From Pseudoxanthomonas sp. J35 (GTDB taxonomy: Bacteria > Pseudomonadota > Gammaproteobacteria > Xanthomonadales > Xanthomonadaceae), in assembly GCF_000513995.1 (NCBI RefSeq), contig NZ_AZVB01000010.1, positions 1-64,000 on the forward strand: DNA of 64,000 nt, in the 5' to 3' direction. Of this stretch, positions 12,832 to 60,828 are shown piece by piece; within the stretch, counting starts at the first letter, position 1, and each line of letters starts with the position of its first letter. The notes beneath the pieces are model-generated. The model made no database searches, had not been told where the DNA came from, and worked only from the letters and a program-made list of their open reading frames with translations. Both the position numbers and the translations under genes were made by a program.

Positions 12832-13026
12832 CGAAGCCACGACCTGAAAGCGACTGAAGACGCGGTAGCGCGGGGGTATGCCGCAAGCAGCACATGGATG
12901 TGCTGCGTTCGCGCGTTGGAGCCAAGGATGGCGGAACCGCGCGATGCGGCATACCCCCGTGCTGCCGCGGCTCCGTCCGAAGCCGACGCGGCCTTTGCCT
13001 TTGCCGTTGCCGTTGCTGTGCTTTTG
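12832..13026 (+). repeat. Structured three-helix repeat, copy A, with hexamer tail
   Basis: Starts with CGAAGCCAC, then an 87-nt core (12872-12958): outer stem GGGGGTATGCCGCA with TGCGGCATACCCCC, inner hairpin GCAGCACAT/ATGTGCTGC (12887-12906) and second stem TCGCGCG (12909-12915) with CGCGCGA (12938-12944). The downstream tag GCGGCTCCGTCCGAAGCC leads into GCCTTT and GCCGTT hexamers (12991-13020). Copies B and C near 34.4-35.2 kb have the same core length and paired substitutions in each helix. Confidence 0.88.
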
Positions 13027-13285: not shown

Positions 13286-13297
13286 GCCACCTCCACC

Positions 13298-13334
13298 GTA
13301 GAGCGGGGCTTGCCCCGCTGCTCCCGCCCTCTAC
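13298..13334 (+). repeat. SMAG-type GTAG palindrome
   Basis: GTAGAGCGGGGC and GCCCCGCTGC form a hairpin, closed on the far side by CTAC. It is one of the GTAG-headed REP elements repeated through the window. It lies between the 1058-aa gene and the small membrane protein gene. Confidence 0.8.
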
Positions 13335-29280: not shown

Positions 29281-29341
29281 TTCATGCGGGGTCCCTGTAC
29301 CGCGGGGTTACGCGACGCGGGGCAAAGGCAGCGGTACAAAG

Positions 29342-29365
29342 GCAGCGGGGCAAGCCCCGCTCTAC
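29342..29365 (-). repeat. SMAG-type GTAG palindrome
   Basis: GCAGCGGGGCAAGCCCCGCTCTAC, the inverted form of the GTAG hairpin, lies between rluB and the exported-protein gene. A weaker partner with GTACCGC and GCGGTAC arms is at 29297-29337. Confidence 0.75.
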
Positions 29366-29383
29366 AGGAAGCGCCGCGCGTGC

Positions 29384-29971: not shown

Positions 29972-29985
29972 GCAGGACGCACCCT

Positions 29986-30063
29986 GTAGAGCCGGGCTTG
30001 CCCGGCTGCCCACGCCTGGCGAAGCGACGTAACGCAAAGGCAGCGGGGCAAGCCCCGCTCTAC
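29986..30063. repeat. Inverted pair of SMAG-type GTAG palindromes
   Basis: GTAGAGCCGGGCTTGCCCGG (29986 onward) faces GCAGCGGGGCAAGCCCCGCT followed by CTAC (ending 30063), separated by about 30 bp. The paired head-to-head arrangement is typical of REP elements mobilised by RAYT transposases. Confidence 0.8.
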
Positions 30064-30123
30064 AGGATGCCCGCGTGCCCATTGCCCCTCTCCCGGAGAG
30101 AGGCGGGAAAGGAGGCGCGACCC

Positions 30124-30200
30124 GTAGAGCCGGGCTTGCCCGGCTGCCCACGCCCGGCAAATCGACGTAACGCAAGGCAGCGGGGCAAGGCCCGCTCTAC
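30124..30200. repeat. Second inverted pair of SMAG-type GTAG palindromes
   Basis: Almost a copy of the 29986-30063 pair, including the spacer words CACGCC and CGACGTAACGCAA, so the two pairs are probably a duplication. Confidence 0.8.
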
Positions 30201-30220
30201 AAAGACGCCGGCACCGATAG

Positions 30221-34398: not shown

Positions 34399-34584
34399 AA
34401 AGCCGAAGCCGAAGGCAAATGCGGGGCACGGGCTCCGGACGGGGCCGCCCCCCCCAAGGGGGGCTGGCGCATCGGCTGGCTCCGCCGTCCATGGCTCCGA
34501 CAGCCGACCGCAGCACATCCATGTGCTGCTTGCGCCAGCCCCCCTTGGGACGACGTCTCGGAGGGCGTTGACGACGTGGCTTCG
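34399..34584 (-). repeat. Structured three-helix repeat, copy B
   Basis: On the minus strand it begins at CGAAGCCAC (34576-34584). The 87-nt core is 34458-34544, with outer stem GGGGGGCTGGCGCA/TGCGCCAGCCCCCC, extended to 18 bp by CCAA/TTGG. Inner hairpin GCAGCACAT/ATGTGCTGC and second stem TCGGCTG/CAGCCGA follow. A hexamer-like tail (GCCTTC, GGCTTC, GGCTTT) ends at 34399. Compared with copy C the outer stem swaps TA for CT on one side and AG for TA on the other, preserving pairing. Confidence 0.87.
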
Positions 34585-34643
34585 ATCGACCGCGAAAAGC
34601 ACGCCCCCGCATCGGTCGGGACGCCGATGGGCGCCCGCTCCCT

Positions 34644-34720
34644 GTAGAGTCGGGCTTGCCCGACTCCCACGCTGGACGTGCCCGCACCCGCCAGGAGCAG
34701 CGGGGCAAGCCCCGCTCTAC
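34644..34720. repeat. Inverted pair of SMAG-type GTAG palindromes
   Basis: GTAGAGTCGGGCTTGCCCGACT faces AGCGGGGCAAGCCCCGCT and CTAC. The two arms differ by paired changes (GTCGGGC/GCCCGAC against GCGGGGC/GCCCCGC), showing that hairpin pairing rather than sequence is kept. Confidence 0.8.
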
Positions 34721-34846
34721 AGGAGGCGCGTGGCCGGATAAAGCCTCGGGCCCGCGCCCTGCAATGCCCGGCCGGTCGAGCAATCTTTCCCGCGACGCCG
34801 CTGGCCGCCGGGTGCGCTTCCCTTACCCGGGCCATGCCATCGATAG

Positions 34847-34958: not shown

Positions 34959-35184
34959 CGAAGCCACAACCGGAACACGCCCGAAGACGTGGTGCACCGG
35001 GGGTATGGCGCAAGCAGGCCATGGATGGCCTGCGGTCGGCTGTCGGAGTCATGGACGGCGGAGCCAGCCGATGCGCCATACCCCCGGAGTACCGCGGCTC
35101 CGTCCGAAGCCGACCCACCCCAACGCCGTTGCCGTTGCCGTTGCCGTTGCGGTTGCAGTTGCCGTCGCTGTGGCTGTGGCTGTA
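34959..35184 (+). repeat. Structured three-helix repeat, copy C, with (GCCGTT) array
   Basis: Begins CGAAGCCAC. The 87-nt core at 34999-35085 has outer stem GGGGGTATGGCGCA/TGCGCCATACCCCC, inner hairpin GCAGGCCAT/ATGGCCTGC (35014-35033) and second stem TCGGCTG/CAGCCGA. The tag GCGGCTCCGTCCGAAGCC follows, then hexamers from 35125: four GCCGTT, then GCGGTT, GCAGTT, GCCGTC, GCTGTG, GCTGTG and GCTGTA. The inner hairpin differs from copies A and B by a compensated change (GCAC/GTGC to GGCC/GGCC). Confidence 0.88.
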
Positions 35185-58584: not shown

Positions 58585-59988
58585 ATGTCGTTGCTGATCG
58601 TGCTGGCTGCGCTGGCGTTCCTGATGGTGGTCGCCTACCGCGGCTACAGCGTGATCCTGTTCGCGCCGGTCGCGGCCATGGGCGCGGTGCTGCTGACCGA
58701 TCCTTCGCTGGTCGCGCCGATGTTCACCGGCCTGTTCATGGAGAAGATGGTCGGCTTCCTCAAGCTGTACTTCCCGGTGTTCCTGCTGGGCGCGGTGTTC
58801 GGCAAGCTGATCGAGATCTCCGGCTTCTCCAAGGCCATCGTCGCTGCGGCCATCCGCGTGGTCGGGGCCAGGCGGGCGATGCTGTCGATCGTGCTGGTCT
58901 GCGCCCTGCTCACCTACGGCGGCGTGTCGCTGTTCGTGGTGGTGTTCGCGGTCTATCCGTTCGCCGCCGAGCTGTTCCGCCAGAACGACATCCCCAAGCG
59001 GCTGATCCCCGGCACCATCGCCCTGGGCGCGTTCACCTTCACCATGGACGCGCTGCCGGGCACGCCGCAGATCCAGAACATCATCCCCACCGCGTTCTTC
59101 GGCACCACCGCCTGGGCGGCCCCGGTGCTGGGCATCCTCGGCGGCGTCTTCATCCTCGTGCTGGGCATGGTCTACCTGGAGTGGCGCCGCCGCGTGGCCG
59201 CGCGCAACGGCGAGGGCTACGCCAGCGGCATCGAGCTGCGCAACGAGCCGGAGCCGTTCCGCGGCGACCGCCTGGCCCATCCGCTGGTGGCGATCCTGCC
59301 GCTGGTCCTGGTCGGCGTGGCCAACTTCTTCCTGACCCGCTGGATCCCGCAGCTGTACGGCGCCAGCCACGAGTTCCTGCCTTCGGTGGTCGGCACCCCG
59401 GCGCCGGTGGTGCAGGACGTGGCCAAGGTCGCGGCGATCTGGGCGGTCCAGGGCGCACTGCTGGCCGGCATCCTCAGCGTGCTGGCCTTCGCCTGGAAGC
59501 CGGTCGTGGCCAGCTTCGCCGAGGGCACGAAGAACGCGGTCGGCGGCGCCCTGCTGGCCTCGATGAACACCGCCTCGGAGTACGGCTTCGGCGCGGTCAT
59601 CGCCGCCCTGCCCGGCTTCCTCGTCGTGGCCCATGCGCTGGGCGCGATCCCCGATCCGCTGGTCAACCAGGCCGTGTCGGTGACCGCGCTGGCCGGCATC
59701 ACCGGGTCGGCCTCCGGCGGCCTGAGCATCGCCCTGGCGGCGATGGGCGACACCTTCATCGCCAACGCCCAGGCCTACGGCATCCCGATGGACGTGCTGC
59801 ACCGCGTGGCGGCGATGGCCTCCGGCGGCATGGACACCCTGCCGCACAACGGCGCGGTGATCACCCTGCTGGCGGTGACCGGCCTGACCCACCGCCAGTC
59901 CTACAAGGACATCTTCGCCATCACCATCATCAAGACCCTGGCGGTGTTCTTCATCATCGGTGTGTTCTACGCCACCGGCTGGGTCTGA
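58585..59988 (+). CDS. GntP-family permease, probable D-3-hydroxybutyrate transporter
   Basis: 467 aa with about 12 membrane helices. ATG 58585 has GGAG 7 bp upstream; ATG 58561 lacks a ribosome-binding site. FTFTMDALPGTPQIQNIIPTAFFGT and ALPGFLVVAHALGAIPDPLVNQA are typical of GntP-type carriers, a family that includes gluconate and 3-hydroxybutyrate permeases. Gluconate is the alternative substrate. The bdhA-like upstream motif and the PHB genes nearby favour 3-hydroxybutyrate. Confidence 0.87.
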   Translation: MSLLIVLAALAFLMVVAYRGYSVILFAPVAAMGAVLLTDPSLVAPMFTGLFMEKMVGFLKLYFPVFLLGAVFGKLIEISGFSKAIVAAAIRVVGARRAMLSIVLVCALLTYGGVSLFVVVFAVYPFAAELFRQNDIPKRLIPGTIALGAFTFTMDALPGTPQIQNIIPTAFFGTTAWAAPVLGILGGVFILVLGMVYLEWRRRVAARNGEGYASGIELRNEPEPFRGDRLAHPLVAILPLVLVGVANFFLTRWIPQLYGASHEFLPSVVGTPAPVVQDVAKVAAIWAVQGALLAGILSVLAFAWKPVVASFAEGTKNAVGGALLASMNTASEYGFGAVIAALPGFLVVAHALGAIPDPLVNQAVSVTALAGITGSASGGLSIALAAMGDTFIANAQAYGIPMDVLHRVAAMASGGMDTLPHNGAVITLLAVTGLTHRQSYKDIFAITIIKTLAVFFIIGVFYATGWV

Positions 59989-59992
59989 CGGC

Positions 59993-60067
59993 GTAGAGCG
60001 GGGCTTGCCCCGCTGCCCCGGTTTTCCCGGGCTACCCGACGTGGGAGCGGGGCAGGCCCCGCTCTAC
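59993..60067. repeat. Inverted pair of SMAG-type GTAG palindromes
   Basis: GTAGAGCGGGGCTTGCCCCGCT faces GAGCGGGGCAGGCCCCGCTC and CTAC. It starts 5 bp after the permease stop. Its final CTAC, read on the minus strand, gives the TAG stop of the L,D-transpeptidase gene at 60064. Confidence 0.8.
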
Positions 60068-60828
60068 AGGTGGGCTACGGACGACGACGCAGCGCCGCAG
60101 TCGCCGCTGAGCAGGCGCGAACGCTGCAGCCATTCCTTGTCGGGGTAGTAGGCGAACAGGAAGGTGCCGTCGCGCAGGGTGTCGATCAGCTTGCGCGCCA
60201 CCTGCGGGCGCACTGCCGGGCAGCCGAGGCTGCGCCCGAGCCGGCCCTGCAGCTTCGCCGCCACCGGATTCACGTATGGCGCGCCGTGGATGACGATGGC
60301 GCGCTCGCGGGCGCGGTCGTTGAAGCCCGGCTCCAGGCCGCGCAGGCGCAGCGAGTAGCCGTTGCCACCCATGTAGGTTTCCTGCGCGGTGAACGCGCCG
60401 AGGCTGGTCATGAAGCTGCCTTCGGCGTTGGAGAACTTCTTCGCCAGGTTCTCGCCGGTGTTGCGCCCGTGCGCGACCCACTCCTCGAACAGCAGCTGGC
60501 TGCGTGCCAGGTCGAACACCCACATCCGCGGCTCGGTGGAGGGCCGCGAGTAGTCGATCACGCCCAGCCGCCGCGGATCCACGCCCAGCGCCGGATCGCG
60601 CAGCGCGCAGGACATCGCCCGCGCGGCCAGCTCCAGGACTTCGGGGCTGGCGGCCGGCGCCACTTCGGCCAGCCGCGCGGCCAGTCCGGCCCCGGGCAGG
60701 CTCGCCACGGGCGTGGCGACCGGCTGCAGCGACGGGACCGGCTGGGACGCGGGAACCGCCGGCGCGGCCACGGCCAGCAGCGGGAGCAGGGCCAGCCGGC
60801 GGCCGGCGGATATCGGGAACGACTTCAT
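60064..60828 (-). CDS. Murein L,D-transpeptidase catalytic-domain protein (YkuD_2 type)
   Basis: 254 aa. Signal peptide (LALLPLLAVAAPAVPAS), a low-complexity linker, then a catalytic domain with IVIHGAPYVNP and LGRSLGCPAVRP carrying the active-site Cys, the form seen in the YkuD_2 (PF13645) family. It likely modifies peptidoglycan in the periplasm. Start at 60828 (MKSFPISAG) gives the signal peptide. Its stop codon lies in a GTAG repeat. The second L,D-transpeptidase is just upstream on the same strand. Confidence 0.87.
   Translation of the reverse strand: MKSFPISAGRRLALLPLLAVAAPAVPASQPVPSLQPVATPVASLPGAGLAARLAEVAPAASPEVLELAARAMSCALRDPALGVDPRRLGVIDYSRPSTEPRMWVFDLARSQLLFEEWVAHGRNTGENLAKKFSNAEGSFMTSLGAFTAQETYMGGNGYSLRLRGLEPGFNDRARERAIVIHGAPYVNPVAAKLQGRLGRSLGCPAVRPQVARKLIDTLRDGTFLFAYYPDKEWLQRSRLLSGDCGAASSSVAHL

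Follow-up and report, generated by a model that had tools for sequence, protein, structure and literature searches.

What is the folded sequence that recurs in the 64-kb window analysed here (the whole stretch of DNA, 64,000 nucleotides of the Pseudoxanthomonas sp. J35 genome, G000; other G numbers denote compared genomes), and what does its fold serve? A first-pass annotation, made from the letters of the window, had described a three-copy repeat whose 87-nt core forms an outer stem of 14 bp or more enclosing two hairpins, with paired changes that imply selection on an RNA or single-strand DNA fold. The copies lie where they had been placed, and a covariance model of the repeat (R1) matches them at 12857–12975 (+; copy A), 34440–34559 (−; copy B) and 34984–35102 (+; copy C). 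Each folds as an outer stem enclosing two hairpins, with predicted energies of −69.9, −72.9 and −66.8 kcal/mol for A, B and C, respectively; the corresponding z-scores in a shuffle test were −8.75, −8.34 and −7.39, and 0 of 200 shuffles equalled the native fold for each copy. The paired changes listed for the stems were all found. One correction concerns the outer stem: the alignment holds 27 outer-stem pairs, more than an 87-nt core can accommodate.

In copy A, the left arm (12832–12856, +) starts with CGAAGCCAC (12832–12840) and is conserved in an alignment of 28 copies (A1). The Y-shaped core, of A type, matches R1 at 142.6 bits and carries CATGGATG at tip 1 (12893–12900, +) and GGA at tip 2 (12926–12928, +), and the right tag GCGGCTCCGTCCGAAGCC lies at 12967–12984 (+). 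The span first annotated, 12832–13026, also includes a hexamer-type tail of GCCTTT/GCCGTT repeats (12991–13019, +). Copies B and C form a single head-to-head pair, with a GTAG-type REP pair between them. Copy B, the left half, has a B-type Y-shaped core, with its tip GGAs at 34518–34520 and 34488–34490 of the minus strand and CGAAGCCAC at 34576–34584 (−). The REPIN-like GTAG-type REP pair occupies 34644–34720 of the spacer, the same position as in the other pairs read. Copy C, the right half, is A-type by its diagnostic pair; its left arm (34959–34983, +) starts with CGAAGCCAC (34959–34967), its tip GGAs lie at 35023–35025 and 35053–35055 (+), and its right tag (35094–35111, +) is followed by a (GTTGCC)n-type tail (35125–35177, +). 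As first noted, CGAAGCCAC precedes all three cores and the GCGGCTCCGTCCGAAGCC tag lies 3′ of A and C, with a diverged version 3′ of B.

Hexamer arrays of the CAACGG/GTTGCC type were seen at 1–100, 12991–13019 and 35125–35177 of the window. They lie outside many copies and at both outer ends of some pairs; some copies in G016 and G012 have a repeated portion of the right tag in their place. The window also holds GTAG-type REP pairs (GTAGAGCGGGGCTTGCCCCGCT and variants) at 13290–13322, 29337–29372, 29978–30207, 34636–34727 and 59985–60074.

Beyond the window, BLAST with copy A gave 55 genome matches, including short and opposite-strand pieces. R1 was built with 44 base pairs from 29 sequences, of which the BLAST loci supplied 27 and window copies B and C the other two. 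Its search of G000 returned 96 matches at E ≤ 0.01, of which 28 were dropped because a stronger match lay on the other strand at the same place. The repeat is therefore present at 68 places, 48 of them scoring at least 90 bits, so that a total of three holds for the window and not for the genome. Sixty-eight is probably a lower bound, because scoring covered 150 of the 6236 first-look candidates. Few further copies, or a match to a described RNA family, had been named as observations that would speak against the proposal; copies proved to be many, and the Rfam scan of the repeat placed no family at its gathering threshold, so a known Rfam family was rejected as its identity. The 16 sub-threshold Rfam matches were mostly miRNAs and included RsmW (22.5 bits where the cut-off is 52, E 0.05), which may be a chance match. 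Close plasmid or phage relatives were likewise rejected, copy A giving 0 matches at blastn sensitivity. A second model, R2, built from 17 sequences of G019, G021 and G032, all from other genera, recovers the G000 copies (best E 1e-13). Across 250 genomes of the order, with 14 candidates scored in each, R2 detects the fold in 23, which belong to 10 of 77 sampled genera; four of the 23 genomes are Pseudoxanthomonas and two (G021 and G032) are training genomes.

The repeat core is a three-way junction of 119 positions, each half of a pair measuring 115–120 nt. In alignment A3, which holds 113 distinct copies exclusively from Pseudoxanthomonas genomes, 97.6% of cells are paired versus 78.3% after shuffling; changes on both sides affect 36 of the 44 pairs, with 888 double-change cells versus 254 when shuffled (0 of 500 shuffles). 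A3 was fitted to the covariance model, which favours the fold; an unfitted alignment of 29 sequences has double changes in 16 of the 44 pairs. The 17 sequences from other genera have 92.0% of cells paired, versus 69.4% when shuffled. The covariation first read from three copies is thus strong in the larger Pseudoxanthomonas alignment and appears again outside the genus. Alignments A5 and A6, in which the outer stem is not in register across all genera, and A4, which contains opposite-strand shadows, were excluded from the covariation analysis and replaced by A7, whose structure was derived from its own sequences and is hence biased towards that structure.

The two strands are not equivalent. 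Wobble cells in A3 number 171 G·U versus 34 A·C (21 versus 5 by pair position, p = 0.0025), and the unfitted MAFFT alignment gave 53 versus 6 cells. By position, the excess holds for A-type copies (18 versus 5, p = 0.011) and is not significant for B-type copies alone (12 versus 9). With the sense strand assigned by the model, that strand has the more stable fold in 100 of the 113 A3 copies, in 27 of 29 distant copies (a thirtieth was skipped) and in 13 of 18 R2-found copies; DNA folding parameters favour it in 107 of 113. The fold is strongly supported, and selection on one strand is supported by the G·U excess and the stabler sense strand.

The hairpin tips are nearly constant. GGA is found on the sense strand at tip 1 in 110 of the 113 A3 copies, at tip 2 in 112 and at both in 109; tip 1 reads CANGGANG in 106, and the two tip GGAs are spaced 25–27 nt apart in 106. 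Entropy in the tip 1 columns is 0 to 0.42 bits, versus a mean of 0.74 for paired columns. In copies from four other genera of the family and from another family (G051), the outer stem differs and the tips are of the same kind. Across 45 sequences with 48% mean identity, the invariant columns are solely an AG and CA.GGA.G of tip 1, in an alignment where six G051 rows are out of register and contribute their other tip. By eye, all 29 distant copies have the tip 1 GGA, the tip 2 GGA being absent in two (L313 and L299), and of the 18 R2-found copies that were folded (16 from other genera), 14 have GGA in two predicted tips. This constancy is partly a search bias, because the copies were found with models containing the tip.

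Within the genus, the usual unit is a pair facing head to head. Adjacent copies, defined as less than 800 bp apart (600 bp for G016 and nine other genomes), are (−)(+) in 115 of 121 Pseudoxanthomonas cases, with six same-strand and no (+)(−) cases; by genome, the (−)(+) pairs are 38 of 38 in G012, 26 of 27 in G008, 15 of 15 in G004, 10 of 14 in G000, 17 of 17 in G016 and 9 of 10 in the nine others together. Outside Pseudoxanthomonas the head-to-head rule is looser, because only 8 of 13 adjacent pairs read by eye are (−)(+), while four are same-strand and one is (+)(−) (L343, 792 bp). A-type and B-type copies differ at one diagnostic stem pair. In the complete relative G012, a script assigned all 38 pairs to A+B, one copy, within L237, being atypical; among the A3 pairs, 26 of 32 are A+B (7 of 7 in G000, 14 of 14 in G016) and one is unclassed, and AA or BB pairs were seen in G009, G015, G007 and G004. 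A variants and B variants are linked within G012 pairs by eye, and the pair is therefore inherited as a unit. In G000, the three pairs examined by eye (the window pair, L043 and L154) have a GTAG-type REP pair in the spacer, and so do the 14 aligned G012 pairs, the REP family differing between the two genomes; G016 pairs have gaps of mostly 80–120 bp, and no REP pair was found in those aligned.

A second palindromic repeat (GGCGCGTGGCGACGCGCCAG ... GCCAGCGCCC ... TTCATTCCCGGCGC) interrupts about ten G000 copies, either in the outer stem or in the second hairpin; among L159–L171, it lies upstream of position 948 in L161 and in the core in L166 and L167. It also occurs alone, downstream of other copies (L009, L010 and L030). 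The core of L021 (L021/L039, G000:C28:166947) runs in the opposite direction to its own end sequences, and L029 (G000:C12:34199) has the right-end sequence on both sides, which suggests recombination between stem arms or between copies.

Comparison of orthologous sites indicates that the repeat moves. Between conserved flanks, the B/C site measures 961 bp in G000 versus 232 bp in G003, and 1043 bp versus about 94 bp in G006, G009 and G015. The G000 pair at C32:76309/76748 is likewise absent from the same site in G003, which at the C13:240241 site has a B copy alone; copy A is common to both genomes. Because two pairs are absent at orthologous sites in this close relative, the repeat behaves as a non-autonomous mobile element. 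No target-site duplication was readable by eye at the compared sites, where the flanks have diverged and the ends are not clean. In G012, whose single copies were typed solely by match length, the orientation of A-type copies follows the replichore (22/6 versus 10/21, Fisher p = 0.0006), in a test suggested by the data themselves; GC skew there is negative in 8 of 10 first-half samples and positive in 9 of 10 second-half samples. Splitting the G012 pairs post hoc into two lineages gave p = 0.0024, and pooling all pairs gave p = 0.10. The corresponding trend in G000 is weak and not significant (9 versus 4 on contigs with consistent skew). The G012 bias hints at a replication-coupled, single-strand route of movement.

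A partner gene was sought among Y1 transposases. Y1_Tnp genes are present at E ≤ 0.001 in 15 of 17 genomes of the genus and above the family cut-off in 14 of 17; around 12 such loci in six genomes (up to 1.5 kb on each side), R1 and R2 gave weak matches, the best 29.8 bits, and the stronger of these are classic REP arrays. G005 has 10 repeat copies and no Y1_Tnp match. A RAYT/Y1_Tnp gene was rejected as the obvious autonomous partner, and so was a transposase gene between more distant copies, as L101 and L343 hold ordinary-looking open reading frames by eye. The weak hits at L112 (G012) are a classic REP array adjoining a RAYT-like gene (994–2232), which has 121-bp tandem repeats made up of classic REP pairs on both sides. 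At L111 (G003:C21), perfect 23-bp inverted repeats (AAAGGGGACGG..., 1337–1359 and 2207–2229) flank a Y1 transposase gene and resemble the GGGGWSAS motif of TIRYT elements.

With genes called by a home-made gene caller, the G000 places comprise 27 convergent, 18 same-direction and one divergent spacer (46 classified, 8 unclear), the sole divergent place being one where a called gene overlaps the element; in G012 they comprise 11 convergent, 21 same-direction and no divergent spacers (32 classified, 6 unclear). Divergent spacers are in short supply relative to the 7 of 43 divergent gene pairs in the window (p = 0.003). By eye, unpaired copies in same-direction spacers of G000 oppose the direction of the genes at 13 of 15 places, one of the 15 having two copies on the same strand; a search of these loci with the filter off found no hidden sense partner. 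Pairs in same-direction spacers of G012 have no orientation bias (11 to 10). The 28-copy alignment has no T-run after the stem, the consensus there being GGCTCCGTCCGAAGCC, and the repeat is therefore not an intrinsic terminator. One single copy of A-type length in G012 (3198019–3198133) lies about 400 bp downstream of csrA (C1:3197467–3197622).

How does the repeat relate to known systems? Intergenic mosaic elements (BIMEs) combine several palindromic modules in a mosaic between genes; the Y module and mixed pairs set the repeat apart from them by description. Published REPs, the class with RAYT transposases (compare PMC3116915), are characterised, in the cited sections, as hairpins of 20–40 bp tagged GTAG or CGTC (PMC3733652). 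Like REPs and REPINs as outlined there, the repeat has many intergenic palindromic copies in inverted pairs, mainly in convergent or same-direction spacers, and mixed pairs recall the heterodimers of several REP families (PMC3733652). Unlike them, each half is a 115–120-nt three-way junction and not a tagged hairpin, the GTAG REP pair is a separate module in the spacer (G000 and G012 pairs read), and no RAYT was found adjoining repeat copies at the 12 Y1_Tnp loci of six genomes. Judged by what defines REPs and REPINs, the inverted intergenic dimers are present, while the size, the tag and, at the 12 loci examined, a cognate flanked RAYT are not; the repeat shares their life style and lacks their defining size and tag. 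The terminal inverted repeats (TIRs) of Stenotrophomonas maltophilia TIRYT genes are also long, and one family is portrayed in the cited section as self-complementary and mostly spaced at short distances (PMC3733652); these families may be relatives, likened here by description. Copies of the present repeat do not flank any of the 12 Y1_Tnp loci studied. The regulatory RNAs CsrB, RsmX, RsmY, RsmZ, RsmW and RsmU share GGA in hairpin tips (PMC4950607, PMC7694677, in the passages cited) but come from one or a few loci each, whereas the repeat has up to 112 dispersed copies per genome with two tips each; RsmU is reported, in the passage cited, as limited to Xanthomonas (PMC7694677). No description of this repeat family was found in open-access papers. 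The RNA or single-strand DNA fold of the first-pass annotation is thus retained, and the head-to-head A/B pairing, the mobility, the order-wide spread and the GGA tips are additions to it.

The tips suggest a function. In the cited part of the CsrA literature, the site is RUACARGGAUGU, mostly in six-base hairpin loops closed by AC/GU, and CsrA bridges two sites 10–63 nt apart (PMC7652899). Tip 1 of the repeat resembles this site, CACAUGGAUGUG tips match it closely, and each Y presents two GGA sites in hairpin loops at a bridging distance. G000 has one rsmA/csrA gene of ordinary sequence; among 60 genomes, 56 have the gene and 20 have the repeat. RsmW and RsmU, as reported in the passages cited, provide a precedent for mRNA 3′ ends as sources of RsmA-binding RNAs (PMC4950607, PMC7694677). 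Because the two tips at a bridging distance fit the CsrA site, this precedent exists and rsmA/csrA is present, we tentatively adopt, at close to an even call, the reading that this is a mobile repeat whose predicted transcript would be a two-tip docking site for an RsmA/CsrA dimer. The unit is a non-autonomous mobile intergenic element, in Pseudoxanthomonas usually a head-to-head pair and, among the pairs typed, mostly of an A-type and a B-type half. Read outwards from the pair, each half folds as a Y of a long stem and two hairpins with the GGA tips on the same strand; the sense Y would be exposed in read-through transcripts, and one dimer could bridge its two tips, mostly 25–27 nt apart. Many copies could jointly form a sponge for RsmA/CsrA that is dispersed over the genome, or could dock it at the 3′ ends of mRNAs, and the head-to-head arrangement would give one sense Y for either direction of transcription. 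The wider proposal, an order-wide, self-spreading mobile sponge whose A/B pairs expose one predicted site whichever way transcription runs, is possible and held with less conviction than docking itself.

The strongest points against docking are four. The stems of the repeat are very stable and the tip 1 hairpin has eight pairs, whereas CsrA-selected SELEX hairpins have mostly four or fewer and very stable hairpins may bind poorly according to the section cited (PMC7652899). The unpaired G000 copies mostly oppose their genes, and read-through would therefore carry an antisense Y there. Many genomes have rsmA and no repeat, among them the Pseudoxanthomonas genomes G010 and G011. Finally, the searches are biased towards the tip. 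Also counted against docking are the non-significant G·U excess in B-type copies, the looser pairing outside the genus, the figures for R2-found copies (13 of 18 sense-stabler, 14 of 18 with two GGA tips), a replication-strand bias that is significant for G012 A-type copies and not in G000, and the finding, in the part of the RsmU study cited, that RsmU with its four GGA motifs all altered lost neither its binding to RsmA nor its function (PMC7694677).

Several of these observations would suit a purely selfish REPIN-like or TIR-like element, in which the fold and GGA tips are signals for a trans-acting single-strand transposase (HUH Y1 or other) and serve no host role. High copy number, inverted pairs and insertion polymorphism are what such an element would display; the replichore bias of G012 A-type copies, the Y1_Tnp genes in most genomes of the genus, the preference of DNA-parameter folding for the sense strand and the self-complementary, closely spaced TIR repeats tied to a RAYT-like gene in S. 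maltophilia (PMC3733652, section cited) all point the same way. Against it stand the weak matches alone around the 12 Y1_Tnp genes, the 10 copies of G005 beside no Y1_Tnp match, and a tip sequence that is near-constant across families of the order where the stem is not. Moreover, sense-only tips suit a same-strand transposase poorly, because each single strand of a pair holds one sense and one antisense half. We regard the selfish element as somewhat doubtful in itself and nearly as likely as RsmA/CsrA docking.

The gene context fits a third account, a bidirectional BIME-like 3′-end element that stabilises mRNA ends, limits read-through or binds gyrase or IHF, with the GGA tips irrelevant: convergent and same-direction spacers make up all but one of the classified places in G000 and G012. 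These calls come from a home-made scorer, however, the stem is not followed by a T-run, and conserved tips beside variable stems would be left unexplained; we consider this account unlikely. Template-switch repair keeps inverted repeats perfect, and the long stems would allow the compensatory changes to come from such palindrome repair between arms, with no selection on the fold. Repair is strand-symmetric, however, and predicts equal G·U and A·C, not the observed 171 versus 34 or, in the unfitted alignment, 53 versus 6; it also makes no prediction for loops, whereas the tip 1 columns are less variable than the average of the paired ones. This last explanation is already disfavoured and appears very improbable.

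The usual explanation for intergenic repeats in bacteria is a selfish hairpin of the REP type. The family reported here is larger, recurs with one fold across several genera and families within an order, forms mixed pairs in Pseudoxanthomonas, and keeps bases that are read by a known global RNA regulator. If RsmA does not bind, the constant tips would offer a handle for finding the missing transposase. If RsmA binds, post-transcriptional regulation would have a source in mobile repeats, and direct tests could address which factors antagonise RsmA in these bacteria. If the sponge proposal is true, the tens to more than 100 copies in a genome would determine how much of a global regulator is free, a level that would be tuned as copies are gained or lost.
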